Source: Deltaproteobacteria bacterium (GTDB lineage: Bacteria > Myxococcota > Myxococcia > Myxococcales > SZAS-1). Taken from it: a stretch of 46,827 bases of DNA. The position numbers were made by a program, and so were the translations under genes. Position 1 is the first letter of the stretch. The number at the start of each line of letters is the position of its first letter. The stretch spans positions 1 through 46,827 of the forward strand of contig JAFEBB010000056.1 in assembly GCA_018266075.1 (NCBI GenBank), read 5' to 3'. The notes beneath the pieces were generated by a model. It was not told the origin of the DNA. It did not search any database and saw only the letters and a program-made list of their open reading frames with translations. Positions 31-32,443 of this stretch are shown here, one piece after another.

Positions 31-279
31 TCAACAGCACGCGGGACTACGCCCGTCGTCACCCTCGCCGACGTAGACGGCGGTATCGAACGCCTGGTCC
101 TCCGAGGGCCCGACCAAGACGTAGATGCCGGTCCGCCGAACTTCGGAGCGCTTCCCCAGCCGTTCCAGCTCAGTCCGTGGCGCCACGAGTGCTTGGCCGG
201 TCCACATCCCGACCTCGGCGGTACGAAGGCCCTGGGCAGACCCATCGACCAAGAACAATCGAACCGATCGGCCTGGCAT
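31..279 (-). pseudogene. GIY-YIG nuclease-like protein, truncated after the N-terminal half
   Basis: An 82-residue frame opens with ATG inside the stop of the kinase gene (TGATG overlap), so it is translationally coupled as the last gene of the operon. Residues about 48-75 contain GIYVLVG followed by VYVGEGDD, the two conserved strands that name the GIY-YIG nuclease family. Directly after GEGDD the frame gives seven unrelated residues and stops. The family normally continues with the catalytic Arg and Glu, which are absent. The other two frames down to position 1 do not clearly restore the homology. The gene is therefore probably frameshifted or cut by a rearrangement, and the protein should lack nuclease activity. 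The alternative is a short stand-alone protein built on the N-terminal domain. Confidence 0.6.
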
Positions 280-1484
280 CACGGCTTCCCTTCGGAGAAC
301 TGGCCCACCACGCGCAGAAGGTCGTTCTTGAATTCGGCTACCGACGGGTAGCGACCGCCGGCAGGCGCGAGAGCCTTCGTGATCACCGCATCGATCGGCG
401 CGAGTGCGCCGTCGCGGTTGGCCAGTGCGTGGTAGTTGGCTCGGTCGGGCAGTTGCCCCGCGATGACCTCGTAGAGGATCACTCCGCACGAGTAGATGTC
501 GTGTCCCGGCGACCGCAGTTTTGGATTCGCGAGAACCTCGTGCGGGACATATGCGGCAGTTCCAACCCCGGCTGTCGTCAAACTCTCCTGAGTCGCGTCA
601 TCGAACACGTACGCCAGGCCAAAATCGACGACTACGGCTTGGCCATCGCTATCACGCACAAGGATGTTCGATGGCTTCAGATCACGATGAAGAACCTGAT
701 TGGCATGGGCATATTCGATGGCCCCGAGCACCTCAATCATGTGCCGCACCGCAAGTGCTGGGGACTGCCCAAACGTCGCCTCGCGGAGATTCTTCCCGCT
801 GATCAGCGCCATAACGAGAAATGGTCGGCCGTCGCCGTCCAGCCCGGCGTCGACATACGGGACTATTGCTCGATGCTGGAGCTTCCGCACGACAGCGACC
901 TCCCGCTCAAAGCGCTTGCGGGCCTTCTCGATGTCGGTAAGAGCGCTTGGCAGATGTAGCTTCACTGCAAATTCGAACGAGCCGAACGCAGACTCTCTTG
1001 TCGCTCGACGAACCTCTCCGAAACCGCCTCGCCCAAGGCACTCGCCAATGAGGTACGTCGGCGCTGAGCTGGAGGCTTCAGGTGATGTACTTGCTACTGA
1101 GCTGACAACCTCTCGAACCAGCTTTGGTGGCCGAATCGCGTACCCGATGCGGTGCTTTCTGAGGATGGCATTGACGTGTTCTGCGGTCGGCGTCCGTACT
1201 TCTTCGCCCACCGTTGTCATCGCGGTCCAGTAGGCATCGATGAACGCGGGGAGGTTTCGGTCTTGCCGGCCCATCGCATCGACCATGTCGCTGTGGGCCC
1301 AACTGGCGTTCGAACTGGTGTTCGAGTTACCGAACCGCCCTTTGAAGATCTCGTATACCGCCTGCTGGTCCTCGGCCTGAGCTGCCACCCTAGTTACGAG
1401 CTCAAGCAACTCATTCAGCGCCTCTTGGGGCATGTGCCCGAGCGTCGGGTCGAAGTACCAGTCCCGCGGGTAGTCGAGGCTCAT
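279..1484 (-). CDS. Ser/Thr protein kinase of the defence operon
   Basis: A 401-residue cytosolic protein. Residues 1-125 form a domain I do not recognise. A Ser/Ala-rich linker (about 126-142) leads into a Hanks-type kinase domain: glycine loop GRGGFGEV (151-158), catalytic-lysine strand AVKLH (Lys175), HRDLKPSN (266-273) and DFG (287-289). All residues needed for phosphotransfer appear present. The usual APE motif reads PHE (314-316). No membrane segment or sensor repeat follows. The ATG overlaps the methylase stop by four bases (ATGA), and its own stop overlaps the next start, so it belongs to the operon. By analogy with PglW kinases of BREX type 2, it may sense or regulate the methylase/helicase machinery. 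That role is inference; the kinase assignment is firm. Confidence 0.88.
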   Translation of the reverse strand: MSLDYPRDWYFDPTLGHMPQEALNELLELVTRVAAQAEDQQAVYEIFKGRFGNSNTSSNASWAHSDMVDAMGRQDRNLPAFIDAYWTAMTTVGEEVRTPTAEHVNAILRKHRIGYAIRPPKLVREVVSSVASTSPEASSSAPTYLIGECLGRGGFGEVRRATRESAFGSFEFAVKLHLPSALTDIEKARKRFEREVAVVRKLQHRAIVPYVDAGLDGDGRPFLVMALISGKNLREATFGQSPALAVRHMIEVLGAIEYAHANQVLHRDLKPSNILVRDSDGQAVVVDFGLAYVFDDATQESLTTAGVGTAAYVPHEVLANPKLRSPGHDIYSCGVILYEVIAGQLPDRANYHALANRDGALAPIDAVITKALAPAGGRYPSVAEFKNDLLRVVGQFSEGKP

Positions 1485-4400
1485 GCCGAGATCAGCCCTC
1501 CGCCACTGGCAGCCATCGCGTCATACTGTTCAAGCACCAGCTTTTTGGTCCGGTACTCGCCGTACCGCTTGGTCTCATTCTCCTTGAGGACACGAAAGGT
1601 CTCTGCGGGAGGCGGCGGGTCAAGGACGAACTCCACCTCACTGCGGTCGAGTCCGTAGAGGTGGAAGAACGCGGCGTCGAGCTCAGCGCGGATCCGAACC
1701 CGTCGCGCCTCGTCCCACTTGAAAGGCTTACCCTGATAGCCGCAATCGCGGGCGAAGGGCGTCATGTCGTTCGACACGTAGACCAGCTCTAGGACGCGCT
1801 CGGAGAACCACTTATACGCGGGTCTGTTCGAGTCCAAGTAGGGGATCACCTCTCGGAACCGATCAGGCGCTACGACCGGAAGCTGCCGCATTGTGAAGTA
1901 CTTGAGCGAGGTGCCGCCCACCTTTTGTCGAGCCGCGTAGTCGAAGACTAAGGACGCCATCATCGTGCCCAAGCACGAAACGAGGGCAGGCTCTTCGTTC
2001 GAAAGGCAGAGGAGGTACTTGTCACCAACACCTACTCTCGGGATGAAGGCGGCGATGACGGTCCGTTCATCGGTGTTCCGGGTGATGTCGCGCCAGCCGA
2101 GCAGCCAATCGCGATTCCAACCATCAGCCATCGCATCTGCGACCTCGGCGGCTGGGACCCAGAACCAGGGCTGCGCCACGAAGTCCGGGTCAGCCTTCTG
2201 CTCTGCTGTGGGCCTCGGCAGGATGCCCTGGTTGGCCTGCGCCTCAGTCTGGCCTTCGTACGTTCCGTACCGATGGTCGAAGTGGTGAACCATCTTCGCC
2301 TCGTAGAGCGGCAGGTACCTGTCCTTTCCCTTGGCGAAGGTGTTGCCGGTGCGCCTCCAGCCCTCCTTCTCCAACTGAGCCTGTTCGCGGAACAGACCGG
2401 AGTCGTTCGCCATGTGGAACATCGCTGAGAACTTCACCTGCCACGGGTTCGCCTTCGGTTCCTCCTCTCGTACGAGCACGGGAAGGCGGCCGTAGATCTT
2501 CTTGGCCAGAGCGGCGTCAGACGTCGTGCGGAAGATTGGGCACGTGCGCGTGTTCGGGTTGAGAAGTCGGATCTCATCTGCCGTGAGCGTGAACCGGCGC
2601 TTTGGATCGCTGACCTGCTCTACCTGCCGGGCGAAGAAGACGAACAGCGGCGCCGTTGGGCCCCGCTCTCGTGATGCCACCGTCAGGAGGGAGAACTTCA
2701 GAGCGTGATGGACTGCGGGGAAAAGGAACTCCTCATTCTCAAAGCTGAGGAGGCTGACGAGAGCTCGCCCGTCTACGAGGTCTTGGAAGAACTCCTTCGT
2801 CGTGTCATCAGTTGCGATGCCCGCGGGCACGATGCAACCAACTCTGCCGGTCCGTGCAATGAGAGCTCGATTCCACTCCGAAAACGCGGTGTAGGTATTC
2901 ACGTCGCCCTGACCGCAGAGCGGATAACGTCCGGAAGACCGGATGAAATGGCTTTCGGCTTCGGCCTGCCGCCGTGCATCCAGAAATGACGCGAAGAGAA
3001 CCGGGTCCTCGGTCTCCAGCTTTGCGATCATCTGCTTGCGCGTGGCCGCTTTACCGGCCGCCGCAATGTCCGGCCTGCGGACCGCAAACCACTCCTTCTC
3101 TTGGAGTTTCACTCGCTCCCACGGCGGGTTGCCGAGAACGACGTCGAATCCACCCTTCCACCCTGGTGCGGCCACTTCACCATTCGGATCCCCCGCGAAG
3201 ACCTCCGGGAACGCCAAGTGCCAGTGGAAGAACGCGAAGGAATCCGCAAGGCGTTGCACCTCGGTGGTCAGCTTGGGGGTCGCGTTGCTTGCGTCAGCAG
3301 CGAGTCGCCGGAACAGATCCTCGGTGATGGCGAAGGCCGCGTCAGTCTTTCGCCACGCGAAAGCGGCACACCATGCGTCCGCGATGAAGTTCGCGTGCCG
3401 GAAGGTTTCTGACTGGCGCAGCCCCTCCCAGGCCCGTTCCTTCTTGTGGACCCCCTCGATCGTCTCGTCTACGAGTGCTTCGAGAGCGACCGCGGCGTTG
3501 GTTAGGCCCTCGGTCGATGCGACTACCCGAGCGCCGCCAAAGAGGCTCCCCTGGCCAGTACGTTGCGCCCTGTTGTCCCTCTTCAAGGAAGACACGATCT
3601 TCCTGTCATCGCCCTCGATGGCCTCGAATGCTTCGTCGGGGATCCCTTTGGCGATGAGCGCCGGGGTTGCGCCGATGAGCGCATTGCCTTGCCGAATCTT
3701 CGAGTCGAGGAAGCTCAGCGGCCTTCCGGGCTCCAGTGCCTCCATCCAGAGGCTCACCTTGCAGAGCTCGACGGCCATCTCGTTCATGTCGACGCCGTAG
3801 ATGCAGTGGCCGATGACATCACGGAGCGCCCGGCGCACGTCGACGGGGCTCGGTTCCTCGTTGCCAGTGCGGATGAAGGCCAGGCGCTTGGCGATCCGAT
3901 GGGCGGCAGCGATGAGGAAGTGACCCGAGCCGCAGGCCGGGTCCACGACCTTCAGGGCCAGGATGGCCTTCTCCGGGTCGGAGTTCTTGGCGGCCTCATC
4001 TAGGACGGGGTCCAGTGCCGAGTCGAGGAGGCAGGTCACCAGGCTGGTCGGCGTGTAGTAGCTGCCGGTGGTCTTCCGCTCATTCCCACTGGCGCTCACG
4101 AGCTCAAACAGGGCCTCCTCGACGTTGACCTGCTTCGGTCGCAGCTCCAGGAGGGACTCGTAGATGCCTCCCAGTTCCTCGGCGCCGAGGTTGCGGTAGT
4201 CCACGTATCGGCGGACGCCGTTACCCTCTGTGACGGTGAGGGCTCGAATCGCATCGAGGAGATCCCGGTTGGCGATTGAGCAGCTTTTGAGCGCCGCGAC
4301 AGCGTTCTCGGACCACAAGAAGCTTCCGAGGGCGGGCAAGCCAAGATCAGGACAACCCTCATCGCGCCCCAGCTTCTCCATGACGACCCAGAGCGACTGC

Positions 4401-5431
4401 CACAGGTCGCCGTGCGGAGTGCCACGGACGGTCTTCGCCAGGCTTCGCAGCCGCTGTGCCGAGTAGAAGCGCCGATACCGAGTCTTGGAGTCGGCCGGTG
4501 CGTCCGGAGCGAGGAGGATCTCTCGATCTTCCGCCACGAAGAGGAAGATCAGCCGGTACACCAGCCGCAGGAGCTGGCGATAGTAGTCGTCCTTGGAGAG
4601 TCCGGTACCTTTCAGCGCTGCCTTGAGCTCCTTGTTGGACGGGTGCGCAATGAAGCCGCGTCCCAGTGTGAGGATCGCCTTCTCGACCCCATCCCTGAGT
4701 TGGTCGAGGGCCCGCGTGCCCTGCGCCTGTGCTGCCTTGGACCACTTCTCCAAGTAGCAGTCCTCGGGGCGCTCGGACCGAACACGGGTGGCGTGGCACA
4801 GCATCCAAAACAGCACGAAGTCCGGGTAGACCTCGTCTCGGAGCATGGCCTCCAGGTCGAACTCGACGAACGACTGCCTCGTCAAGGCGACGCTGTCGCG
4901 CAGGATCCGGAGCTTGAGGCCGTTGGAGACGAACGCCCAGAGGTGCCCCTTGGACCGGTTCAGGAACTCTTGAACCAGACCGTGCGGCGTCATCTTTGGG
5001 TGGTCGGGGCCCGCCTGGTGACGCACGTCGAGGTCGCACCGGAACCCGGGCAGGTGAATGGGGGTGTGCTCCCAGCCGTGGGAGATGGCGTAGACCTTCT
5101 CCTCGATTACGACGGGCTTCGCCGGCGCCAGCAGGCCGTAGTCGAGCTCCTTGAACAGAGGAAGAAGCCACTTCTCCTGGGTGACCTTCGCGCCCTCATT
5201 CCCCTCCGGAACCTTCGCCATCGCTTCGCGGAAGCCTGCCCAGAGGGCGCGAACCTTGTTCCACGAGCGGCTAATGGCCTCGTTTAGCTTCTCGCCGACG
5301 AGCGCGTAATCGCCAGGGGCGAGGCCCTCCAGCTCCTTGTCGTTGCCGGCGATGCGCCGGAGGAGGTCTGGGGGAAGAATCGCCCCTTCAATGTTGATCG
5401 TGCTGAACCGATCGTTCGTACCCGCGGCCAT
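1481..5431 (-). CDS. DrmMI-like class I N6-adenine DNA methyltransferase
   Basis: A 1,316-residue protein. The N-terminal part (about 85-185) has the WLLPLFKEL and LVQEFLNRS...LWAFVSNG blocks seen ahead of large type IIG/DISARM-type methylases. The SAM-binding motif is DPACGSGHF (497-505), preceded by TGSYYTP (455-461), and the catalytic motif is NPPW (768-771), of the N6-adenine (or N4-cytosine) class. The C-terminal third (about 900-1,316) is probably the target-recognition region. I see no obvious active nuclease motif in the N-terminal part, but cannot exclude one. Size and architecture match DrmMI of class 1 DISARM. The TAA of the SNF2 helicase gene lies two bases before its ATG, and it overlaps the kinase start, so all are co-transcribed. 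Expected role: marking host DNA as self. The modified site is unknown. Confidence 0.88.
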   Translation of the reverse strand: MAAGTNDRFSTINIEGAILPPDLLRRIAGNDKELEGLAPGDYALVGEKLNEAISRSWNKVRALWAGFREAMAKVPEGNEGAKVTQEKWLLPLFKELDYGLLAPAKPVVIEEKVYAISHGWEHTPIHLPGFRCDLDVRHQAGPDHPKMTPHGLVQEFLNRSKGHLWAFVSNGLKLRILRDSVALTRQSFVEFDLEAMLRDEVYPDFVLFWMLCHATRVRSERPEDCYLEKWSKAAQAQGTRALDQLRDGVEKAILTLGRGFIAHPSNKELKAALKGTGLSKDDYYRQLLRLVYRLIFLFVAEDREILLAPDAPADSKTRYRRFYSAQRLRSLAKTVRGTPHGDLWQSLWVVMEKLGRDEGCPDLGLPALGSFLWSENAVAALKSCSIANRDLLDAIRALTVTEGNGVRRYVDYRNLGAEELGGIYESLLELRPKQVNVEEALFELVSASGNERKTTGSYYTPTSLVTCLLDSALDPVLDEAAKNSDPEKAILALKVVDPACGSGHFLIAAAHRIAKRLAFIRTGNEEPSPVDVRRALRDVIGHCIYGVDMNEMAVELCKVSLWMEALEPGRPLSFLDSKIRQGNALIGATPALIAKGIPDEAFEAIEGDDRKIVSSLKRDNRAQRTGQGSLFGGARVVASTEGLTNAAVALEALVDETIEGVHKKERAWEGLRQSETFRHANFIADAWCAAFAWRKTDAAFAITEDLFRRLAADASNATPKLTTEVQRLADSFAFFHWHLAFPEVFAGDPNGEVAAPGWKGGFDVVLGNPPWERVKLQEKEWFAVRRPDIAAAGKAATRKQMIAKLETEDPVLFASFLDARRQAEAESHFIRSSGRYPLCGQGDVNTYTAFSEWNRALIARTGRVGCIVPAGIATDDTTKEFFQDLVDGRALVSLLSFENEEFLFPAVHHALKFSLLTVASRERGPTAPLFVFFARQVEQVSDPKRRFTLTADEIRLLNPNTRTCPIFRTTSDAALAKKIYGRLPVLVREEEPKANPWQVKFSAMFHMANDSGLFREQAQLEKEGWRRTGNTFAKGKDRYLPLYEAKMVHHFDHRYGTYEGQTEAQANQGILPRPTAEQKADPDFVAQPWFWVPAAEVADAMADGWNRDWLLGWRDITRNTDERTVIAAFIPRVGVGDKYLLCLSNEEPALVSCLGTMMASLVFDYAARQKVGGTSLKYFTMRQLPVVAPDRFREVIPYLDSNRPAYKWFSERVLELVYVSNDMTPFARDCGYQGKPFKWDEARRVRIRAELDAAFFHLYGLDRSEVEFVLDPPPPAETFRVLKENETKRYGEYRTKKLVLEQYDAMAASGGGLISA

Positions 5432-5433
5432 CT

Positions 5434-8268
5434 TTATGCCGCTCCGTTCGGAAGGAAGAGGAAGACGCCGAGTAGGTCAGGAGCACCGGCGGCCTGAATG
5501 CGGTGGCTGACCCCCTTAGCCTTGGAGGACTCGCGGACACGGCGGTGCGCATCGAGGAGTTCCTTGCCCCGCTCGTCGCCGGTTCGTGCGAGCTGAGGAC
5601 CGATGACGGCCATCCCCTCAGGATCGAGCACCTTCTCCAGAAAGGCTTTCGCCTTGTCTTCGAAGACGTTTCCACCAGGCTTGGCGAACAAGAGCTTCTC
5701 GGCCTCGCCCGGCGGAAGCCATTCGGCGCTCTGCGGTGCGCCACGGAAGCCGAGGAGCAGGCAGTCTTCGGCCAACAGCGGCCACTCCACGTTCCCCTGC
5801 TTCGTCAGGATGTGGAACCGGAACCGCGCCAGGAGCAGCGTCGTGCGGCGCTGTACGGCGTCGGTCTGGATGACGCCGCAACGCCTCGCGAGCGGCTGGC
5901 CCGCCTGGGCGTCGAGTGCAGTCGTCAGCACGTGGTTGGCCAACCGCTCGACAACCGGATGCGTACGCTGGAGGTAAGCCACTCCCTCCGGAACAGGCAG
6001 CTCAAATCTGGCGACAAAGGTCTTCTCTTCGCCGACGGCCTCACGGATTGCGGGTGCAGTCCCCTTGAGATCGACCTTGAGCGTGCCCTCGTTGTCCCCG
6101 ACGACCGCGTGCGCCGCTCGAAGCGTTTCGGATACGAATCGCTCGACGTCGACGGCTGCGCCGATCGCGCTCTGGATCGCCTGAAGTTCGCGGGCCACCT
6201 CGTCCACCTTGATGGGAATCTGGGCGTATACGGTTTGAGACTGCTTGAGCGCCGCTTCCTGCCAGTCCTTGTGCAGGGCGTCGCGCTGAGCCTTGACGAC
6301 GGCCTCCGGGAAGAGCTCGCCCTGCTCAGTCTTGTCCTGACGCTTGAGAAGTAGGCCCTCGAAGATCGCCTCCATCACCTTGTTCGGGTCGGTTGGCACC
6401 GGCACCGAGATACCCAGGTCGTTGCGAATCGACTTGTGCTTCTTGATGAGTACATCGAGGACGATGCCGTCGATGCGGTTGTCCTTGCCGTAGTAGGTGA
6501 TGACGCGGACCTTGTCCTTAACCTGTCCGTACCGGTCCACTCGGCCCTCGCGTTGCTCGTGGCGGGTCGGATTCCAGGCGAGGTCGTAGTGAACGACCGC
6601 GTCGAAGTGCTCCTGGAGGTTGATCCCCTCGCTCAAGCAGTCGGTGGCAACCAGAACGATGGGTCTCTTCTGCTTCTTGTGGGCTGCGAGCTCGGCAATT
6701 CGCGCCTCGCGATCCTCAGGCGGAAGTTGCCCCGTCACCGACATCACCTCGACTGACTTGAGCGCCTTTCGGACGTACTCGGCAACGTAGTCGGCGGTGG
6801 GGATGAATCGGCAGAAGACGATGGGGCTGAAGCCCTCCTCGATGAGCGGCTTGAGGAGCTGGAGCAGTCCCTGAAGCTTGGAGTCCTTCTTCCCGCCAAG
6901 CGCGTCTGCCTCCGCTGCGAGGCCTCGCAGGCGCTTGCTCGTCTCCGTTTCCGTTCCATTGTCCGTGAGCCCGCCAGGCGCGACGTCGATGCCTTCGGCG
7001 CTCTCATCACCGGCGGGGTCGAGGACCGTGATCCGGCCGAGCTCGTCGGCTGTCTCGATCGAATCGGTGTCCGCGACCGCCGCCCGGTTGCGAAGAGTCA
7101 TGGCTGCTGCCGCCGGGCTGCTGGCGAGAGCGCGAAGCAGGCCGAGGGCTGCCCACCATCGGATCCGCTGCCGGTAGGTCTTGTCGTCGGCGTCCTGGAC
7201 CGTCTCGCGGGCAAACTCCAGCACCTTGTCAAATAGGCGCCGGTAGTCAGGCGTAAGCAAATAGGTCGGATCTTCTTTGGGCGACTCACGCTTCGGAAAA
7301 GGCGTCTCCGCGTCCAAGAAGGCTTTGAGATCGCCGCGGCGCCGCTGGACGACGTACTTGGCGAGCTCTCGCTTCCGCTCGTCCGCCTCCTTGGGGCTCG
7401 CCGCCTCAGACAGCTTCTCAAATTCCGGCCGTAGCAAACCAAGCAGGGAACGGAACGCGCCCTCCTTGCCGCTGTGGGGAGTCGCGGTGACGAGCACGAG
7501 GTGGCGGCTCTCGTCTTTGGCCAGGCCCTTCAGGAGTTGATGCCGCTGATGGCGGCCTGTGTTGGCGCCGCCGTCGAAGGCGCACGAGTGCGCTTCATCG
7601 ACGATGACCAGCTCAGGGCAGCTCCGCAGGAAGTCATCGCGTCGCCGGTCGCTCTTGATGAAGTCCATCGAAACGACCACGAAGGGGTAATGCTCGAAGA
7701 GCGACTCACCCACGTCGAGCGACTTCTCCAGCCTGGAGGCTGTGCTCGCGAGGACCAGCTCCGCCTCGATGTGAAACTTCTGGAGAAGCTCGCGCTGCCA
7801 CTGCTCGGCCAGCGGCGGCGGACAGAGTACGCAGAGGCGCTTTACCTCGCCGCGATCCAGGAGCTCGCGGGCGATGAGACCCGCCTCCACTGTCTTTCCG
7901 ATGCCGACGTCGTCTGCGATGAGTAGCCGCACCGGATCGAGCTTGAGCGCCATCAGCAATGGGACGAGCTGATAGGGCCTCGGCTCAACCGCCAACCGGG
8001 CGAAGCTGCGAAACGGGCCGGCGCTGGAGCGGAACCCCAACCGGACGGCATCGCGCAGGAGCCGGCATGAGCTGTGATCCCCGAGCTGCTGGATTGATGG
8101 CGGGTCGAAGCTCGCCGACTTGACCGCTTCGAGTGGCAGGTACACGCCTGCGATTTCAGCGTCGCTGCCGCCCAAGGGCCGGAGGACGAGAAGGTTCTCG
8201 TCGGACTCCGGCAGCACCACCCAATCCCTACCCCTGGCCGTAACCAATGCCCCCGGTGCGTAGTTCAT
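5434..8268 (-). CDS. SNF2-family helicase, DrmD-like
   Basis: A 944-residue superfamily 2 ATPase. The Walker A motif is ADDVGIGKT (118-126), the DEAH box lies at 224-227, motif III follows as TATPHSG, and the C-terminal helicase lobe carries QREGRVDRYGQ (motif VI). This is the HepA/DrmD type of SNF2 enzyme, which moves on double-stranded DNA rather than unwinding it. The ATG lies within the stop of the large upstream helicase (TGATG); a TTG one codon earlier is the alternative start. SNF2 helicase directly followed by a large adenine methylase is the hallmark gene pair of class 1 DISARM. The part after about residue 640 is unassigned and may contact the other subunits. Confidence 0.9.
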   Translation of the reverse strand: MNYAPGALVTARGRDWVVLPESDENLLVLRPLGGSDAEIAGVYLPLEAVKSASFDPPSIQQLGDHSSCRLLRDAVRLGFRSSAGPFRSFARLAVEPRPYQLVPLLMALKLDPVRLLIADDVGIGKTVEAGLIARELLDRGEVKRLCVLCPPPLAEQWQRELLQKFHIEAELVLASTASRLEKSLDVGESLFEHYPFVVVSMDFIKSDRRRDDFLRSCPELVIVDEAHSCAFDGGANTGRHQRHQLLKGLAKDESRHLVLVTATPHSGKEGAFRSLLGLLRPEFEKLSEAASPKEADERKRELAKYVVQRRRGDLKAFLDAETPFPKRESPKEDPTYLLTPDYRRLFDKVLEFARETVQDADDKTYRQRIRWWAALGLLRALASSPAAAAMTLRNRAAVADTDSIETADELGRITVLDPAGDESAEGIDVAPGGLTDNGTETETSKRLRGLAAEADALGGKKDSKLQGLLQLLKPLIEEGFSPIVFCRFIPTADYVAEYVRKALKSVEVMSVTGQLPPEDREARIAELAAHKKQKRPIVLVATDCLSEGINLQEHFDAVVHYDLAWNPTRHEQREGRVDRYGQVKDKVRVITYYGKDNRIDGIVLDVLIKKHKSIRNDLGISVPVPTDPNKVMEAIFEGLLLKRQDKTEQGELFPEAVVKAQRDALHKDWQEAALKQSQTVYAQIPIKVDEVARELQAIQSAIGAAVDVERFVSETLRAAHAVVGDNEGTLKVDLKGTAPAIREAVGEEKTFVARFELPVPEGVAYLQRTHPVVERLANHVLTTALDAQAGQPLARRCGVIQTDAVQRRTTLLLARFRFHILTKQGNVEWPLLAEDCLLLGFRGAPQSAEWLPPGEAEKLLFAKPGGNVFEDKAKAFLEKVLDPEGMAVIGPQLARTGDERGKELLDAHRRVRESSKAKGVSHRIQAAGAPDLLGVFLFLPNGAA

Positions 8269-11200
8269 CAATTCGTCTTTCCAAAGATGCGGGGGAACTT
8301 CGCCACGACGGCCGCCCAGTCATCGGTGTGAGCGAACCGGATGACCAGCCAGTTGTCGTCCTCCATGGCTTCCTCCGCGGCCTTGTCTCGGGTAGCTCGC
8401 TCGGGGAAGTCGTGCGGCGGGCCGTCGACGTACACGACTGCCCGCTCCTCGTCGTAGACGAAGTCCGGACGGGTCTTTGCGGCCTCGAAGAGGCGCTGGC
8501 CCGCCGACGGTAGTTTGAGGTTTTGCTTGTCGAGCATTCGGAGCCATCGCTTCTCCAGCTCGGAGTCGGCGAGGTTCATGAGTTGCTTAAGGTGCTCTGC
8601 CCTGGAGATTGGCCCGGGCGCGACCTTCACCGTCGCCTTCGCGAACGTAGCAAGTAGATCGCGGAGCAACTTCCGGTCGAGAAGCTCGTGATCGCCCTGA
8701 TTGGTGTAGCTCATCAGGCAGTCGTAGCAGGCGGCTTCGCAGTCTTCGCGAGCTCCCTCCGCCCGACGCTTGTCCGCACCCGTTTCCGGGTCGAAATGCA
8801 GGAGCGTGAGAGCACGCTTCGCCACAGCTCCGATGACGTCGGGGTCCTCGACGAGCCGGCGCAGAACTCCCGCGCCGCCTTCGGACGCCTCGAAGAGGAG
8901 AATCTGCCGCCGGTCCTGGAAGGTCGGAAGCGGCTCTGCTGCAAGCTCGTTCTCTTCGAGTTGAAACTCCACCTGAATGGCGTTCTTCAACGCAGCCTGC
9001 AGAGAGGCCATTGTGGCATCAGGCAACGCCAACTCCGGCTGGAACAGCAGGCAGTTCCGATGGTCCTCGACATAGGGGATCACGCGCTTCTTTTGGGACG
9101 ACATCGGATCGTCCTTGTCGTCCTCGTCGAGGTCGTTCTTGCTCCAGTAGCCGCGCTCTTCGTCGAGCCAGAAGCCCAGTTCTTCCTTCCGCTTGCGGCG
9201 CTTCCATCCGAGATTGATTCGCCAAATGGTCGCCGCGTGCCCGTACGTCAACGACGCGAGCTTGTTGCCGTCGGCGGCAACCACCTCGGCGGTCTTGGCC
9301 CGTACGACATTGTCGCGAGGCTCGAAGCGAACCGCCGTCCGTAGTTCATATCCAAGGCGAAGACGCTCCTCCTCGTCAGAACTGATCTTGTCGCGTCGCT
9401 TGGTAGAAACGTTCTGAAGCCGGAAGAGGCTGTCGATTGGCTGCGGTAGGACGGCCTTGCACCTCTCGCAGGTGTCCGGTCCGATCCCCTGGTGAATGGG
9501 GTGCAGATAGCCGCACGCGGTGCACTGCTTTGCCGAAACGGTGATGACGCCTCGGTCATCAACCGGGAGAATGACGCGGTTGATGAGATACCGGGAGCCC
9601 TCGTGGTAGACGATTGCCCGCGGACCGAACTCCGAGATGGCGAGGAATCGGGGGCGGGATAGATAGTTGTCTTTCGCCCCCTTGAGCGTGCGCATCTGGC
9701 GTCCGGGTAAGTATGCCGAGAGCGGCAGCCGAGGGAAGTTGTAACCGGGAAGAAAGCCCTCACTCGCGAAGTACCGGTAGCTGTAGAAGTCCGACTGCGA
9801 GATTGAGTCGGCCTCGGTCAGCAACTCGATTTGAGCTTCGGCCTCGCGCCGCAGCCGTTGCGCCTGCTGCTTGTCTTCATAAGACCGGCTGACGTCGTTG
9901 ATGATCGTGGTCTGGAGGTCTCGCTGGCGCACGGCGGAGGTGTAGAGGGTCCGCCAGCGACCGCAGGCACCATCAAACTGCTCCAGGGTGCGCCGAAGTG
10001 CGTCGTCGAGCCAGGTGGCCTCCCACCAATCTGCACTGGAAAGGTCCGACTGTAGCGTGGCGAGGACGTTCTCTGCCCGCTTCCGGGCTCGTTCCTGCGC
10101 CAGAGGGTAGCTCAGCGTCTGGCGCACGGAGGCGAGCAGCGGGAGCTCCGGCTTCCCGCTGGCGAGGTCGAGGAGATCCTTCAACGTCGCGCCGAGTGAC
10201 TGCTCCGTCTCGGCAAGCCAAATGGCATGGATGTGAGACCGGACGAGCTCCTCGTTCCCCAAATCCAATCTGGGCGGCGCGACAGAGCCGGCGACCATGT
10301 TGTCCGGGCGCCTAAAGAAGTACTGGTCGTGCTGCGAGTTGGTGGAGCAGTACGCAACGACGAGCGCCGGTTGACCACTTCGTCCTGCGCGTCCACTTCG
10401 CTGGGCGTAGTTGGCGGGCGTAGGCGGGACGTTGCGCAGATTGACGACGTTCAGCTCGGAGATGTCGACTCCGAGTTCCATGGTCGGAGAGCAGTAGAGG
10501 ATCGGCAGCTCACCTTCACGGAACAAGTTCTCTCGCTCTTCCCGCTTGTCCGACGGGACCTGGGCAGTGTGCTCGCGAGCCACAAGGCCGACGGCGTCCA
10601 GCGCCGCGGCTTTGTAGAACACAACGAAGAAGTCGTTGCTTCTGGCGCCGTCCCTCGGCGGGGAGGGAACCCGAATCGGATCCAACGCGACTTTGGTGCC
10701 GTCGCCAGCGAGCCATCGGAACGCCGAAGCAGGAACTTGATAGCCCGGCACGTCATCCTTGGGCTCGTCCACGCGCTCGACGAGGCCGGCAACACGGAGG
10801 GCCTCCAATAGTTGCCGAATGATGTCCTGCCGGTCGTCGAGCTTGAGCTTGCCTTGCGCCCACTCGGGGAACGAGTTGGGGCGGCCGAGAAACTGGCCGA
10901 AGCCGCCGCGGGCCGAGAGATAGACGTTGTCGGACCGGTCGTTCGGCTTTCCGCTCCTGGGGTACAGGATGGAGGCACGTTCCATCCGCTCCTGCTCGTC
11001 AATGCCCCAAGGCTCCTTCAGCTTTTGGCTGCTCTGTTGACGAATGCGATCGTGGGTGTCTTCGCGCAGGTACTCGACCTTGATGCAGAGTTCCCGCCGC
11101 ATGTAGTCGAGCAGCACCTTTGCAACCCGTGTCCTCGTGTCAGGCGAGGCCGTCTGGAGTACCGGGTGAACTGGCTCCTTCTTGTTTCCGCCCGGAAGAG

Positions 11201-13475
11201 GAATCTCCTTCCACACCTCCTCGTCGCGACAGACCTCATTGAGCGAATTGTAGGCAATCTCCAGAAGGCCGCACTGCTCCAGGTTCGGAGACGTGACGCG
11301 CCACCCTCGACGCAGGTCTCGATACAGGCGGTAGCCCAGCACGTCCCGAAGTGCCTTTTCGGTGTCGGCCTTCGCCTGGTACTTCACGCCCGGATCGATG
11401 GCGTATAGCGAGAGCGGCAAGTCGAGAGCGGCGAAGACCTTCTCTGTGAGCACCTCGTGGGTGATGCCGCCCGGAGACGCGACGCATGCCTTGAACAGAG
11501 CCGACCGAAGGAGCCCGACGTCAATGAAGTCGTTGAAGTGGCCCGCCTGTAGAGAGGCGTCTTGGCGGTTGTCGGTGAAGCTCAGGAGCTTCTTTGCCTT
11601 CGGTGAGAGCGTCTGGTCGCGCTTCAGATGGCGGATCGCAGACAGGCTGAGAATCGTCGTCGCCGTGCTGCGGCCTTCCGAACCGAGCGCGGTCAGCTTT
11701 CCGAACTCGGAGCGCTGTCTGGCGCTGTAGGAGACGCCGCAGGCGAGGCAGAAGCGGAACGTGCCCTCCAGGAAGCTGACCCTGTGGCCGTCCGTCTTGT
11801 CTTCCGTAGCCGCGGGGGACACGCGGCAGGGGATGGGCATGTCATTGCGGCGGGTGTCTTTGACGACGACCTTGCCCTTGCGCTCTTCGAGCCAGTCCTC
11901 TGGAACTCGCTGAAGCTGAGCGTCGATGGAGTCGGGCCAGGGGTTATCCGTGCTGAGGAAAAGGTATCCTGCCCCGTCCTCCATCTTTTCGAGCAACTCA
12001 CGCGGCTCGAATGACACCTGGCCAGTTGCCGCGTCGTAGTTCTTTTGGACGACGTAGTACTCTTGGCCGCACTCACGACAGAACGCGAGGGGCAGAAGCC
12101 GCCGGCTGCGGTCCCCAGGGACGAACTTTTGAACCTGAAAGGTGATGTGTCTTCGGTCCTCTGGCTCCACAGTGGCGTAGACGGTGTCTCCCTTGCTGAT
12201 GAACTGGTGCAGACGGAACGCGAAGATCGGGAAGCCCGTCTCTGGGTTCTGCACTCGGTAGCCTGCGAGCAGTGTGTCCTGGATGGCCGACACACATGTC
12301 TCGATGGGCGCCCCCGTCAGCTTGCTCACTTCGACCGCTGCCCCGTCTGCACCGCCGATGCGCCTTGGGGGACTACGAATCAGGCGTTTGCCCTCGTCCG
12401 CGGGCCGAACGCCAAACGTGCTCTCGATCCAGCTCGCCAGCGGGTCTTCAACGAATGCGGTTGCCGAATCGGGCGGCCGCGCTTTCGTGTCGTTGACGCG
12501 CTTGGTGAGTGCCGCCTTGGCAGAACCCGCCGCGAAGTCCAGCGCCGGGGTTGCCCTCTTCAAGGTCTCGCCGATGACCGACTCGGGCTTGACGGTGGTG
12601 CCGAAAAGCTGGGTCGCCACCCTGGCCACCTCGGCTCGCTGCTGGGTCTGCGTACCTTTGCTGGAAAGGGTGGCGGACGTTCCCACGCAGAGAAGGTTTT
12701 CGGCTCCGAGACGGTCTCGCACGCGCCGCATGAGCAGGGCGACGTCGGCGCCCTGACGGCCTCGGTACGTGTGGAGCTCGTCGAACACAAGGAACCGGAG
12801 TCCCTTGGCCTTATCAATGAGGTTCCGCTCTGCCGGGCGCGTGAGGATCAGCTCCAGCATCACGTAGTTCGTGAGCAGGATGTCCGGCGGATTGGCGATG
12901 ATGCGCTTCTTTTGCTCGTCGCTCTCCTGGCCCGTGTATCGCTCGAAGGTGACGGGGCCGAGACCTTCCGGGAAGCCGTCCTTGAGGAACTTGGTCAGCT
13001 CCTTGAACTGAGAGTTGGCCAGCGCGTTCATCGGGTAGACGACGATCGCCTGTATGCCGCGGCCACTCCCACGCTGAAGCACGTGGTCGACGATGGGAAC
13101 GATGTACGAGAGGCTCTTGCCCGAGCCTGTGCCAGTAGTCAGAACGTAGTTCTCGCCCTGCTTGGCCCGAAGGATTGCGTCGGCTTGATGTCGATGCAGG
13201 CGGAGGCGCTTCCCTCGGGGATCCGAATCGGACTTGTCCTTTCGGAAGACATCGTCGCAGCCCTTGTGGAGGACGCCCCTGGCGACCAGCTCGTCGACGT
13301 ACTCGCCTGGCTCGAAGGAGGGGTTCAGCTGGATCAGCGGTTCGGGCCAGAGCAGCCCACCGCTGAGCTCCGCGTTGACCGCGGTGGAGATGCGGGGATC
13401 CAGCACCCGAATGAAGCTGCGGACGTAGTCCGAGTAGTCGTCGACGATCCGGCGCCGAAGCTCAAAAACGTCCAT
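8268..13475 (-). CDS. Giant DEAD/DEAH helicase with DUF1998 and a C-terminal nuclease-like domain
   Basis: A 1,735-residue protein, first gene of the operon. The N-terminal helicase has Walker A TTGTGSGKS (113-121), a DELH box (232-235) and, near residue 1,000, PPTPANYAQRSGRAGRSGQ (motif VI of the YprA/MrfA-Lhr group). Cys pairs CRECG, CLACG and CTACG...CERC suggest zinc binding. The DUF1998 signature CEAACYDCLMSY follows. The last 95 residues contain RPDF (about 1,669-1,672) and VVYVDGPPHD (about 1,679-1,688), resembling the Vsr/DUF559 group of restriction-endonuclease-fold domains. In DISARM, helicase (DrmA), DUF1998 (DrmB) and nuclease (DrmC) are separate proteins; DruE of Druantia is a giant DUF1998 helicase. 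I chose ATG at 13475 because conserved-looking sequence starts there; a GTG at 13505 is possible. Confidence 0.85.
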   Translation of the reverse strand: MDVFELRRRIVDDYSDYVRSFIRVLDPRISTAVNAELSGGLLWPEPLIQLNPSFEPGEYVDELVARGVLHKGCDDVFRKDKSDSDPRGKRLRLHRHQADAILRAKQGENYVLTTGTGSGKSLSYIVPIVDHVLQRGSGRGIQAIVVYPMNALANSQFKELTKFLKDGFPEGLGPVTFERYTGQESDEQKKRIIANPPDILLTNYVMLELILTRPAERNLIDKAKGLRFLVFDELHTYRGRQGADVALLMRRVRDRLGAENLLCVGTSATLSSKGTQTQQRAEVARVATQLFGTTVKPESVIGETLKRATPALDFAAGSAKAALTKRVNDTKARPPDSATAFVEDPLASWIESTFGVRPADEGKRLIRSPPRRIGGADGAAVEVSKLTGAPIETCVSAIQDTLLAGYRVQNPETGFPIFAFRLHQFISKGDTVYATVEPEDRRHITFQVQKFVPGDRSRRLLPLAFCRECGQEYYVVQKNYDAATGQVSFEPRELLEKMEDGAGYLFLSTDNPWPDSIDAQLQRVPEDWLEERKGKVVVKDTRRNDMPIPCRVSPAATEDKTDGHRVSFLEGTFRFCLACGVSYSARQRSEFGKLTALGSEGRSTATTILSLSAIRHLKRDQTLSPKAKKLLSFTDNRQDASLQAGHFNDFIDVGLLRSALFKACVASPGGITHEVLTEKVFAALDLPLSLYAIDPGVKYQAKADTEKALRDVLGYRLYRDLRRGWRVTSPNLEQCGLLEIAYNSLNEVCRDEEVWKEIPLPGGNKKEPVHPVLQTASPDTRTRVAKVLLDYMRRELCIKVEYLREDTHDRIRQQSSQKLKEPWGIDEQERMERASILYPRSGKPNDRSDNVYLSARGGFGQFLGRPNSFPEWAQGKLKLDDRQDIIRQLLEALRVAGLVERVDEPKDDVPGYQVPASAFRWLAGDGTKVALDPIRVPSPPRDGARSNDFFVVFYKAAALDAVGLVAREHTAQVPSDKREERENLFREGELPILYCSPTMELGVDISELNVVNLRNVPPTPANYAQRSGRAGRSGQPALVVAYCSTNSQHDQYFFRRPDNMVAGSVAPPRLDLGNEELVRSHIHAIWLAETEQSLGATLKDLLDLASGKPELPLLASVRQTLSYPLAQERARKRAENVLATLQSDLSSADWWEATWLDDALRRTLEQFDGACGRWRTLYTSAVRQRDLQTTIINDVSRSYEDKQQAQRLRREAEAQIELLTEADSISQSDFYSYRYFASEGFLPGYNFPRLPLSAYLPGRQMRTLKGAKDNYLSRPRFLAISEFGPRAIVYHEGSRYLINRVILPVDDRGVITVSAKQCTACGYLHPIHQGIGPDTCERCKAVLPQPIDSLFRLQNVSTKRRDKISSDEEERLRLGYELRTAVRFEPRDNVVRAKTAEVVAADGNKLASLTYGHAATIWRINLGWKRRKRKEELGFWLDEERGYWSKNDLDEDDKDDPMSSQKKRVIPYVEDHRNCLLFQPELALPDATMASLQAALKNAIQVEFQLEENELAAEPLPTFQDRRQILLFEASEGGAGVLRRLVEDPDVIGAVAKRALTLLHFDPETGADKRRAEGAREDCEAACYDCLMSYTNQGDHELLDRKLLRDLLATFAKATVKVAPGPISRAEHLKQLMNLADSELEKRWLRMLDKQNLKLPSAGQRLFEAAKTRPDFVYDEERAVVYVDGPPHDFPERATRDKAAEEAMEDDNWLVIRFAHTDDWAAVVAKFPRIFGKTN

Positions 13476-15694: not shown

Positions 15695-16837
15695 ATGCAC
15701 CCCATGTTGAACAAGCTCCGCACGGAGCTCGATTCGTTGTTCCCCGAGCGCCGCCACGTCATCGACGGCGCGCTCGCCGCGGTCCTGGTCGGCGAGCACG
15801 TCCTCTTCCTCGGTCCGCCGGGGACCGCCAAGAGCGCCCTGGTGCGGACCATCGCCACGGCCTTCCGTGGCACCTACTTCGAGCGCTTGCTCACGAAGTT
15901 CTCGACGCCTGAGGAGCTCTACGGCCCCATCTCGCTGAGGGCGCTGGAGCAGGAGCGCTTCACCCGGGTGACCACGAGCAAGCTGCCCGACGTGCAATTC
16001 GCGTTCATCGACGAGGTGTTCAAAGCAAGCTCGGCCATCCTCAACACGCTGCTGACTTTGATGAACGAGCGCGTCTTCCACAACGATGGCCAGCCCGTGC
16101 AGGTGCCGCTGGTGTCGATGTTCGGCGCGTCGAATGAGCTCCCCGAGGGCAAAGAGCTGGAGGCGCTCTTCGACCGCTTCATGCTGCGCTTCGAGACGGG
16201 CTACTTGGTTCGGACCAACTCGCTGCGCTCGGTGCTCACCTCGCCCGAGCCGATGGTGACGGCCAAGCTGAGCATGGCCGATCTGAAGAAGGCCCAAACC
16301 GAGGTGGCCAAGATCGTCATCACCGACGCCACCGTAGATGCACTCATCGCTATCCGCGAGTCGTTGCGAACCGAGGGCATCGTGGCCTCGGACCGGCGCT
16401 GGAAGAAGTCGCTCGGGCTGGTGAAGGCCGCCGCCTACCTGGCCGACGAGTCTGAGACCACTCCCGAGGACCTCGTCATCCTTGTGGACGCGCTCTGGCG
16501 CGAACCCAAGGAACGCAACAAGGTGGCCCGTATGTTGGGGCAGGTCGCTGATCCTGTGGGTGCCCAGGCCGCCGAGATCCTCGACGCCGCCCGCGAGACT
16601 TCGACCAAGGTCCAGCAGCTCGCTAACGCCGACCGCAAGACGTACATCGCCCAGGCCGCACAGTCGCTGGAGCAGTTCAAGGAGCAGGAGAAGAGGCTCG
16701 TCCACCTGTCCAAGGGCGCTGGCAAGCGGGCCAAGGTGGTGATCGACGACGCGAAGTCGGAGATCACCTCGCTGCACGCCGAGCTGGCCCGAGCGGTGAG
16801 CACGGGCCTCGGGCTCGGGATGCGGCAGGTGAAGTGA
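15695..16837 (+). CDS. RavA-like MoxR AAA+ ATPase
   Basis: A 380-residue AAA+ protein. Walker A is GPPGTAKS (40-47), Walker B FIDEVFKA (104-111), followed by ILNTLLTLMNERVF (sensor/insert region) and the SNELPE block. The order LYGPISLRALEQERF, FIDEVFKAS, SNELPEG is that of E. coli RavA rather than of generic MoxR proteins; the C-terminal part is shorter than in RavA (about 498 residues). RavA works with the vWA protein ViaA, and here a vWA gene overlaps the stop codon. Expected role: ATP-driven remodelling of an unknown target together with the vWA partner. Its position in front of Rad52-like and Cas4-like genes recalls the cobS-like ATPase of SXT/R391 elements, close to bet and exo. Confidence 0.88.
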   Translation: MHPMLNKLRTELDSLFPERRHVIDGALAAVLVGEHVLFLGPPGTAKSALVRTIATAFRGTYFERLLTKFSTPEELYGPISLRALEQERFTRVTTSKLPDVQFAFIDEVFKASSAILNTLLTLMNERVFHNDGQPVQVPLVSMFGASNELPEGKELEALFDRFMLRFETGYLVRTNSLRSVLTSPEPMVTAKLSMADLKKAQTEVAKIVITDATVDALIAIRESLRTEGIVASDRRWKKSLGLVKAAAYLADESETTPEDLVILVDALWREPKERNKVARMLGQVADPVGAQAAEILDAARETSTKVQQLANADRKTYIAQAAQSLEQFKEQEKRLVHLSKGAGKRAKVVIDDAKSEITSLHAELARAVSTGLGLGMRQVK

Positions 16838-18075
16838 TGGACCGCATCATCTACGACGTGCCCCGGTGGTCCCTGTACCTCCATCGGGATGCTCGCGGCC
16901 TGCCGTCGGCTCTCACGAGTGACGCTCCGCTGCGCCAGCTTGAAGACGAGCTCTTCGAGCGTTTGTACGCGGGCGAGGCGGAGTCACTGGCCGAGAACAA
17001 GCAGCACAAGCAGCTCGGCCCTTGGGCTCGCGACCTCCACGCAGCCTGCGGTGCCCATCCCGACTTCGCCCGGCTCCAGAAAGAGGTCTGCGGCGACTCG
17101 TTCATGGCTGGTCTGGCCGTAGAGAAGATTCTGGAGCAGCTCAAGCCCGATCAGCCGCAGAACGTCCGGCGCCAGGTGGGCCACGGGTGCAGCGCTGCGG
17201 CGCGTGCTATCGACGGGGCTCGTGAGGCGCTGGAAGGCGTCGCTGGCGTCGGATGCGTCGGTTGGGGCAACTCGGTTGGTACGAACCAGCCGGGCAAGCC
17301 CCGGGCGGTGCTCCAGCGGCTCCACGCTGACCCGAGGCTGAGGCGGGTGGCGGCGATGGCCGGGCGGTTCAAGCGAATCGCTGCTGGGCGCCTGCGGCAG
17401 AAGGTGAAGCACGCTGTGGGCGAGGTCGCCGACATCGAGCGTGGCGATGCCTTGGAGCGCCTGCTCCCGTCGGATCTCGCCAGGTTCGTGCAGCCCAAGC
17501 TCAGGCTGGTCTTCCTACGCGACCTGCACGAGCGGTCGGCAATGCAGTACGCAATGCGGGGACAGGATCACGTCGGCAAGGGTCCACTGGTGGTCTGCCT
17601 CGACAAGAGCGGCTCGATGGACGGTCCCCGGGATGAGTGGGCGTCGGCCGTGGCGCTCGCGCTCTTGGACCTCGCCCACCGAGAGCGACGGCCGTTCGGG
17701 CTGCTCACCTTCGATGCTGGCGTGCGCACGAAGGACCTGGGGCAGGTTGGCCAGTCGCTGCCTTTCGATTCGCTGTTCCAGCAGTGCCATGGCGGCACGG
17801 ACCTGAGTGGCGTCGTCGCTGCCGCACTTGACGTGATCCGCTTCGAGCAAGAGTCGCTGAAGAAGAGCGACATCGTGCTCATCACCGACGGCCAGTCGGA
17901 CGCGAGCAAGTCGGCCTCGCTCCACGACCAAGCCAAGGTGCTCAACGTGGCCATCCTGGGAATGTCCATCGGGATGCCGGCGGAGCAGCTTCAACCGTGG
18001 TGTGACGAGGTGGTGGAGATTCGCGACCTCGATGCACTGCCGTTCGAGGCCACTGACCAGCTGGCCGGCGACTGA
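16837..18075 (+). CDS. ViaA/CoxE-like von Willebrand factor A protein
   Basis: A 412-residue protein. The helical N-terminal part (1-245) is followed by a vWA domain with an intact MIDAS metal site: DKSGS (256-260), Thr in GGTDLS (319-324) and Asp in ITDGQSD (about 349-355). No signal peptide or membrane helix is present, so it is cytosolic. The ATG shares one base with the MoxR stop (TGATG); a GTG three bases earlier is the alternative. MoxR/vWA pairs act as chaperone-like machines; here the partner is the RavA-like ATPase. vWA-MoxR pairs also form the core of computationally described ternary conflict systems (VMAP), where a third protein is the effector. Which third partner applies here is open. 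Confidence 0.87.
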   Translation: MDRIIYDVPRWSLYLHRDARGLPSALTSDAPLRQLEDELFERLYAGEAESLAENKQHKQLGPWARDLHAACGAHPDFARLQKEVCGDSFMAGLAVEKILEQLKPDQPQNVRRQVGHGCSAAARAIDGAREALEGVAGVGCVGWGNSVGTNQPGKPRAVLQRLHADPRLRRVAAMAGRFKRIAAGRLRQKVKHAVGEVADIERGDALERLLPSDLARFVQPKLRLVFLRDLHERSAMQYAMRGQDHVGKGPLVVCLDKSGSMDGPRDEWASAVALALLDLAHRERRPFGLLTFDAGVRTKDLGQVGQSLPFDSLFQQCHGGTDLSGVVAAALDVIRFEQESLKKSDIVLITDGQSDASKSASLHDQAKVLNVAILGMSIGMPAEQLQPWCDEVVEIRDLDALPFEATDQLAGD

Positions 18076-20242: not shown

Positions 20243-20581
20243 CTACTTCCCCTGCTGCTGGCGAATCTCACGCAGGATGCGAACTGCCGCGCGCTGCCAG
20301 GCCGGGCTCATACCATCGACCAGCTTCGCGGCCTCGCGCCCGAGCGAGGTCGGCTTGGGCTCCCCGGCATCAACGAGCACGCCAGGCTGAATGCCGAGGG
20401 CCTCGGCGAGTCGCACGAGGCTATCGAGCGACAAGCCGCGGCGGCCCGCCTCGATTGCGCGGATGGTGGGCTCTTCGAGGTCAAGGCGTCCGGCGAGCTC
20501 GGCCTGGGTGAGCTCCAGCCGCACACGAGCCTCCCTCACTCGACGTCCGATCTCTTTCCGTAGCGATTTCGCCGTGACCAT
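20243..20581 (-). CDS. XRE-family helix-turn-helix regulator
   Basis: A 112-residue protein. Residues about 20-70 are a Cro/C1-type DNA-binding domain (LELTQAELAGRLDLEEPTIR and the recognition-helix region after it). The C-terminal tail (about 80-112) is helical and may dimerise. The start codon lies inside a perfect palindrome (20572-20590), which suggests autorepression. It is divergent from the GTPase gene at 20674, so it may control that gene and the membrane-protein genes after it. Confidence 0.82.
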   Translation of the reverse strand: MVTAKSLRKEIGRRVREARVRLELTQAELAGRLDLEEPTIRAIEAGRRGLSLDSLVRLAEALGIQPGVLVDAGEPKPTSLGREAAKLVDGMSPAWQRAAVRILREIRQQQGK

Positions 20582-20590
20582 TGGTCACGG
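20572..20590. promoter_or_regulatory. Palindromic operator over the XRE start codon
   Basis: CCGTGACC and GGTCACGG form perfect 8-base arms around ATT. The ATG of the minus-strand XRE gene (20581-20579) falls in the centre. Binding here would block transcription or translation of the regulator itself. Confidence 0.6.
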
Positions 20591-20673
20591 ATGGTCGACG
20601 CGACCCTTGCGTGCCGGCGAGGCGTAGTAGTCTCGCTGCGACCGCAACTCTTAGTTACGTGGAGGGATGGGCA

Positions 20674-21573
20674 ATGGATGAGACGAGGCTGTCGCTGACT
20701 CCGCAGATGCAGGCTCAGCTCAACCGCTTGAAGGACATCGCCGTGGAGGCTGGCCGCCGCCGATTCGTGTTCCTACTGGTCGGGCGCACGGGCGTCGGGA
20801 AGTCCAGCACTGTCAATACGCTGATGGGGCAGGAAGTGGCGCCCGTGGGCCACTTCGAGCCGACCACGATGTCGGTCGAGCGATTCAAATCTGTGCTGCA
20901 CGGCATCAACTACGCAGTGGTCGACACGCCAGGGCTCTGCGACGACCTGCCCGAGGCCGGCAATGATGACCGCTATCTCGACGAGATCCGCGATGAGGTC
21001 TCGAAGCTCGACTGCCTCTGGTACGTGACGAGGCTCGACGAAACTCGGATCACGGGCGACGAGAAGCGGGGCATCAAGCTGATCACCCAGGCACTCGGCA
21101 AGGAAGTCTGGAAGCGCGCAATCATCGTCTTCACCTATGCCGGCAACGTGAAGGCAGCCGAGTACGAGACCCGGCTCGCCGAGCGCGCTCGCCTGGTGCG
21201 CGAGGAGATCGGCAAGGCGACCGAGCACGCGATTCGATCGATTCCTCACGTCGCCGTGGACAACACCTCCCCGACGACTCCCGATGGAAAGCCCTGGCTT
21301 GGAAACCTCTACGTCCAGGTGCTCAAGCGCCTGAACAAGGCGGGAGCGCTCCCTTTTCTACTCGCCACCGCCGAAGACATCCGGCCCAAAGAAGGTAGGG
21401 CTGCACGCATCCAGCTCTCGGCCGAGCAGAAGGCCGAGGTCAAGGAAGAGACCCGCGGGTACATCACTGAGCTGGTGACTGTCGGAGCTGGTGTGGGGTT
21501 CGAGATCGGCGGCCCGCTGGGCGCCGCAGTCGGTGGAGCCCTGGGCGCGCTCATTGGGTGGCTCTTCGAGTGA
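20674..21573 (+). CDS. GIMAP/AIG1-like GTPase with a hydrophobic C-terminus
   Basis: A 299-residue GTPase. The P-loop is GRTGVGKS (37-44), a Thr-rich switch follows (PTTMSVE, 63-69) and the G3 motif is DTPG (84-87). The G4 position is unusual, VFTYAGN, without the normal NKxD/TKxD. The last 30 residues are Gly/Ala-rich and hydrophobic (GGPLGAAVGGALGALIG), like a glycine zipper that inserts in a membrane. ATG at 20674 is chosen for GGAGGG eight bases upstream. Eukaryotic GIMAP proteins scaffold on membranes in immune cells; bacterial relatives are poorly known. It precedes two membrane-protein genes and follows a divergent regulator, so the group may be one small regulated cargo unit. Confidence 0.8.
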   Translation: MDETRLSLTPQMQAQLNRLKDIAVEAGRRRFVFLLVGRTGVGKSSTVNTLMGQEVAPVGHFEPTTMSVERFKSVLHGINYAVVDTPGLCDDLPEAGNDDRYLDEIRDEVSKLDCLWYVTRLDETRITGDEKRGIKLITQALGKEVWKRAIIVFTYAGNVKAAEYETRLAERARLVREEIGKATEHAIRSIPHVAVDNTSPTTPDGKPWLGNLYVQVLKRLNKAGALPFLLATAEDIRPKEGRAARIQLSAEQKAEVKEETRGYITELVTVGAGVGFEIGGPLGAAVGGALGALIGWLFE

Positions 21574-29534: not shown

Positions 29535-29574
29535 GAGCCGCGTTCTACGCGCAGCGGGGACAGGCAAACACGTC

Positions 29575-30733: not shown

Positions 30734-30752
30734 CCCGCCTGAATGAGGCGGG
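30734..30752 (+). promoter_or_regulatory. Hairpin just upstream of the excisionase gene
   Basis: CCCGCCT (30734-30740) pairs perfectly with AGGCGGG (30746-30752) around a GAATG loop. It follows the stop of the previous gene by 7 bases and covers the GAGG that could serve as ribosome binding site for ATG 30758. It could limit excisionase translation. Confidence 0.45.
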
Positions 30753-30757
30753 CACCG

Positions 30758-31003
30758 ATGACGCCAAAGCACCCGATCACGAGGCCCATCGATGGCGGTG
30801 AGCTTGAGCTCCTGACGGTCGATGAAGTCGCTGCCCTCTTCAAGATGACTCGGCGTGCAGTGTACGCCGCAGTAGAGCGCGGCCACCTCCCTGGTGTCGT
30901 GAGGCTGGGCGGAGCACGTCGGAGCATCCGCTTCCGTCGGGCTCGATTGATAGAGTTCCTCCGGGAGAACAGCGTGGCATCGCCCGGAGAACCCGAGCGA
31001 TGA
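30758..31003 (+). CDS. Excisionase-like helix-turn-helix protein
   Basis: An 81-residue protein. LLTVDEVAALFKMTRRAVYA and RSIRFRRARLIEFLREN are the recognition helix and wing of excisionase/HTH_17 proteins. Its stop overlaps the integrase start (ATGA), so both are co-translated. This order is typical of the xis-int pairs of integrative elements; the protein likely directs excision or represses integration. I choose ATG 30758 over ATG 30743, which lies in a hairpin loop without a ribosome binding site. Confidence 0.85.
   Translation: MTPKHPITRPIDGGELELLTVDEVAALFKMTRRAVYAAVERGHLPGVVRLGGARRSIRFRRARLIEFLRENSVASPGEPER

Positions 31004-32359: not shown

Positions 32360-32443
<84 letters not shown>

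Follow-up and report, generated by a model that had tools for sequence, protein, structure and literature searches.

Positions 1481–13475 of the window (the whole 46,827-nucleotide stretch analysed here, which is all of contig C56 of a 7.84-Mb genome) probably hold an ARMADA Type I system, carried as cargo by an integrative element in a tRNA-Asp gene of a Myxococcota-like genome; we put this reading at about 80%. ARMADA is an anti-phage family named in a preprint of September 2025 (Bell et al. 2025, PMC12458937), where Type I is defined by a Druantia-like YprA protein and two genes common to DISARM class 1, in the order YprA, BrxHII/SNF2-like helicase and PglX-like methylase. The window has this gene content in this order, and the three-gene core very likely belongs to Type I. 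The initial annotation had found no named system to fit, a statement that is not valid for the core because a helicase, a methylase and a fused YprA protein are the mix by which ARMADA is defined (PMC12458937).

ORF calls confirmed five co-directional reading frames, of which neighbours share 1–4 bp or sit 2 bp apart:

8268–13475, minus strand, YprA gene, ATG start at 13475
5434–8268, minus strand, SNF2 helicase gene, ~944 amino acids
1481–5431, minus strand, PglX-like methylase gene, 1,316 amino acids
279–1484, minus strand, Ser/Thr kinase gene, overlapping the methylase gene by 4 bp
54–279, minus strand, 5′ part of a GIY-YIG gene, overlapping the kinase gene by 1 bp

The YprA frame is open to 13505, beyond the ATG at 13475, which is most likely the start (MDVFELRR...) by comparison with homologues such as those of L158, L163 and L165. 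The packed operon initially described stands in its frames, strand and spacing, except that the fifth gene is incomplete and interrupted by an insertion sequence (IS). Only spacing supports a single unit of all five genes; at the other ARMADA I loci compared, the kinase and GIY-YIG genes are missing.

The YprA protein (1,735 amino acids) is ArmC-like and combines a DEAD/RecA core, an MZB/DUF1998 zinc domain and a C-terminal Vsr-like nuclease. Pfam matches are to DEAD, Helicase_C and MZB; the MZB/DUF1998 match (E = 1.1e-9) lies in the same protein as the helicase, and it is on this match that we count the OB-CON-DUF1998 fusion of ARMADA I as present. The YprA of ARMADA I is further characterized by a BrxA-like insertion and by zinc modules in RecA2. 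A tree of 30 YprA proteins, in which the Type I reference rows were assigned by operon order, places the window protein in an 18-row clade (support 100) with other such operons and apart from E. coli ARMADA II, Druantia III and DpdJ. The predicted fold of the last 100 residues aligns with the E. coli Vsr endonuclease (Z 9.3, rmsd 2.5, 91 residues), and that of the C-terminal domain with the homing endonuclease I-Bth0305I (Z 9.7). Foldseek alone returned no significant match for this domain, and VIA-align of its candidates led to Vsr. Fold and motifs (PDF and VDG) are those of the predicted active Vsr-type nuclease that is fused to the C terminus in ARMADA I. Most relatives keep both motifs; part of VDG is lost in L057, L059, L067, L068, L073 and L079.

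The second gene encodes an ArmA-like helicase of the SNF2/RapA/BrxHII type (Pfam SNF2 and Helicase_C). It matches the PADLOC model PDLC02853, labelled ‘DpdE’, over its full length with 907 bits, and stays below the NCBIfam cut-offs for DpdE (192 versus 500 bits) and DrmD (328 versus 610 bits). PDLC02853 may have been built on ARMADA-type proteins, mislabelling them DpdE. We rejected the Dpd label on the NCBIfam scores (for DpdJ, 77 versus 800 bits) and on the position of the window YprA apart from DpdJ in the tree; no 7-deazaguanine modification genes were found among the window proteins scanned. The third gene encodes an ArmB-like, PglX-like adenine methylase with DPACGSG and NPPW motifs and matches to Pfam Eco57I/N6_Mtase and PADLOC DrmMI. 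With Pkinase in the fourth protein, the Pfam matches bear out the domains initially assigned.

Also upheld is the initial description of a hybrid, in which a SNF2 helicase and methylase resembling those of DISARM class 1 (DrmD and DrmMI matches) accompany a DruE-like protein that fuses helicase, DUF1998 and nuclease and replaces DrmA, DrmB and DrmC (best PADLOC matches, DruE3/DruE1). These same matches could point to a divergent DISARM class 1 or Druantia system, a reading that we consider highly improbable. The window has relatives of DrmD and DrmMI (its SNF2 helicase and large adenine methylase) in common with DISARM class 1, but it has no separate drmA, drmB or drmC, its helicase and DUF1998 are fused, its SNF2 score falls short of the DrmD cut-off and its nuclease is Vsr-like rather than of the PLD kind present in DISARM and Druantia III. 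Its DruE-like YprA has the fused DUF1998 and C-terminal region of Druantia type III (DruH–DruE), but its partners are a SNF2 helicase and a methylase and include no DruH, E. coli DruE is missing the Vsr-like tail (PDF..VDG) and the tree separates the two. We retain neither DISARM nor Druantia membership, on account of gene content, curated cut-offs and the tree.

ARMADA Type II of E. coli (L128) has homologues of all three core proteins (ArmA, ArmB and ArmC) but in the order SNF2–methylase–YprA, together with ArmD (RelE–UvrD), of which the window operon contains no homologue. In the main text of the preprint, phage-resistance assays are of Type II alone and of no Type I system; Type II protects E. 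coli directly and without cell death, its defence is abolished by mutation of ArmA K136 or D236, ArmB N971 or ArmC K110 or D234, and what the methylase does is unproven even in Type II (PMC12458937). These residues have identical numbering in L128, a copy on an E. coli plasmid. Aligned with it, the window keeps every essential residue tested in the three shared proteins, including the Walker A lysine and Walker B aspartate of the SNF2 helicase (ArmA K136/D236) and Asn768 in the NPPW motif of the methylase (ArmB N971).

We lean slightly towards a mechanism of direct DNA degradation. The SNF2 and YprA helicases would engage invading phage DNA and remodel or unwind it, the Vsr-like tail of YprA would cut it and the methylase would supply discrimination, either by marking self or by sensing; as is the case for ARMADA II in E. 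coli, infected cells would live on instead of aborting. In Druantia III, the substrate of the DruE helicase is 3′ single-stranded DNA (PMC13192584), which supports a DNA structure as the target by analogy only.

On C56, the GIY-YIG gene is cut off after approximately 75 codons; its remainder lies on contig C53, beyond the opposite end of the IS:

1–53, end of the IS, which recurs at four other contig ends (five in total)
54–61, 8-bp target-site duplication, TGACGACG in gene sense
18341–19048 of L112 (contig C53), 3′ part of the GIY-YIG gene, PDC-S14 positions 95–313

Because bases 1–53 are the end of the IS, the stop near position 31 is not the gene's own; as C56 ends at this point, sequence further downstream was out of reach of the initial annotation. 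The end of C53 carries the C terminus of a transposase, the matching terminal inverted repeat and then the remainder of a GIY-YIG–DUF4357 gene, and the flanks of the IS on both contigs share the 8-bp duplication perfectly. The 320-position PADLOC profile PDC-S14 is matched over 16–96 on C56 and over 95–313 on C53, so that the parts of the interrupted gene on either side of the IS together match the whole profile; these parts are contiguous in L121, an intact relative. The two contigs were linked by the duplication, the continuity of the frame and the complementarity of the profile matches, and not by reads. The predicted GIY-YIG nuclease is inactivated by the IS at this locus. The interruption, with IS copies at several contig ends of the source genome, could be taken as the mark of lost selection on a decaying, non-functional island. 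However, the IS strikes the last gene only, and neither truncation nor loss of a catalytic motif is seen in the three core genes or the kinase; decay of this kind seems to us quite improbable.

The integrative element is delimited by the following features of the window:

32367–32443, minus strand, tRNA-Asp(gtc) gene (ARAGORN), the integration target
32367–32390, right attachment repeat, 3′ end of tRNA-Asp, identical at C53:35355–35378
31000–32340, plus strand, tyrosine integrase (Phage_integrase; phrog_1 integrase)
30743–31003, plus strand, excisionase-like HTH_17 protein
28434–29576, minus strand, Rep-like protein (REP_ORF2-G2P, E = 0.002, below cut-off; HIH (HxH) motif)

The ARMADA operon and part of C53 sit between the identical 24-bp repeats (TGGCGGGGTGTACGGGACTCGAAC), where G+C content is approximately 60–68%, versus mostly 68–75% outside. 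The element comprises 16,977 bp of C53, 32,390 bp of C56 and the unassembled interior of the IS, approximately 50 kb. ARMADA islands have been described as tRNA-integrated elements; the window element agrees with this and is integrated as ARMADA II islands are. Its other cargo includes a MoxR ATPase and vWA pair (15695–18075) and an AIG1/GIMAP-like GTPase with a weak LeoBC match (20581–21573).

Of the 54 genome loci, most of those long enough to show it have the YprA–SNF2–methylase block, which is also present on plasmids of Deinococcus, Nocardioides, Rhodococcus and Roseomonas. Neither the kinase nor the GIY-YIG gene was present in approximately 25 other ARMADA I loci where the sequence beyond the methylase could be read, or in nine more from Myxococcota, and the two do not appear in the main text of the preprint (PMC12458937). 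Among 193 Myxococcota genomes, an ARMADA-type SNF2 gene is found in 17 and a GIY-YIG (PDC-S14) gene in 13, the two together in the source genome only. The five-gene set had been presented as a unit, but a second case was found neither in the 54 genome loci nor in the plasmid records nor in the 193 Myxococcota genomes, and recurrence as a unit is not borne out among the loci and genomes compared. What follows the methylase varies between loci: McrBC in Nocardioides, an McrB-like AAA protein in Nocardia, and elsewhere GmrSD, TIR, Mrr_N, HNH_2 or metallo-beta-lactamase genes.

The kinase matches Pfam Pkinase (4.7e-36), PD-T4-6 (8.6e-48) and MADS6 (1.6e-46), and its HRDLKPSN and DFGL motifs are intact. 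PD-T4-6 is a single-gene system and MADS6 is part of another operon; the window kinase shares their Ser/Thr kinase domain and differs in its N-terminal domain. This modular domain (amino acids 1–125 of the product of 279–1484) matches no Pfam model and has invariant positions W9, F51, G52, S57, S58, W62, N105 and PP119–120; AlphaFold modelled the kinase alone poorly (pLDDT 41). Besides the window, its carriers are L097, L098, L099, L100, L105, L106 and L107, which comprise other Myxococcota kinases, one PNP_UDP_1 protein and short alphaproteobacterial plasmid proteins, two of which adjoin TIGR02391 genes. No ARMADA genes lie beside these other carriers, and the source genome is alone among genomes with the domain in having an entry in our SNF2 list. 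For the kinase domain, a second case of the set was found neither in 775 further genomes, in a weak domain-alignment search that had no positive control, nor in phage records, and the viral contigs contained no relatives of the kinase or of the SNF2 helicase. The domain, fused to kinases, to a PNP_UDP_1 phosphorylase or to a short C-terminal part, is swappable and possibly a sensor in defence or of infection.

We treat the kinase and GIY-YIG tail as accessory to the core because the kinase domain and PDC-S14 are unlinked to ARMADA elsewhere and the gene behind the methylase varies, and we consider this status likely; the kinase gene is probably a small, independent gene for defence or regulation that shares the expression of the operon. 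Alternatively, the kinase, and originally the GIY-YIG nuclease, could be true components of an ARMADA I subtype under kinase control, which would be switched on during infection by phosphorylation of its methylase or helicases. Methylase-based systems do include kinases, with analogues in BREX type 2 (PglW) and MADS (MAD6, against which the window kinase scores 157 bits); the kinase has its catalytic motifs, and the genes overlap by 4 bp (methylase and kinase, suggesting co-translation and in keeping with a functional link) and 1 bp (kinase and GIY-YIG). Nevertheless, none of the other ARMADA loci examined has the pair, kinases that share this N-terminal domain occur without ARMADA (L097–L099), the GIY-YIG gene is broken and the gene behind the methylase changes between loci, and we consider such a subtype unlikely. 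The specific version in which the kinase with its modular N-terminal domain is a required switch of the core, with the GIY-YIG nuclease as an additional effector before the IS inactivated it, is likewise doubtful. With the tail taken as accessory, the sequence describes a real defence locus in which the three-gene core is already named and the tail is, on present evidence, specific to the locus.

These results extend ARMADA Type I to an integrative element of a Myxococcota-like lineage, and indicate that the type of carrier known for ARMADA II islands (a tRNA site, an integrase, an excisionase and a Rep-like gene) also bears Type I. The combination of three constant core genes and a varying tail gene (McrBC or an McrB-like AAA protein, HNH, GmrSD, TIR, Mrr or a kinase) makes the roles of the tail genes easily testable.

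Several further observations concern ARMADA I loci elsewhere. At Myxococcales loci (L102, L160, L161, L163, L164 and L165), an HNH_2 endonuclease gene often lies behind the methylase, recognized by Pfam in three and by a similar N terminus in the others. A RelE–UvrD ArmD is the hallmark of ARMADA II; ArmD-like RelE–UvrD proteins, with 32–36% identity to E. coli ArmD over the full length, are encoded between the YprA and SNF2 genes of ARMADA I loci L101 (9892–11973), L054, L060 and L067. On plasmid MP1 of Deinococcus radiodurans (L108, 21967–26492), the ARMADA I methylase is in two frames and is followed by an IS630-type transposase, which suggests that this system is broken. Behind the GIY-YIG gene on C53 (L112, 11876–18201) lies a four-gene cassette of two unknown genes, a PLD/ZacB-like gene and an SNF2/ZacC-like gene. 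In G045 (L158/L167), which has the closest SNF2 match among the Myxococcota genomes, a highly divergent cassette with this layout comes immediately after the ARMADA I methylase.
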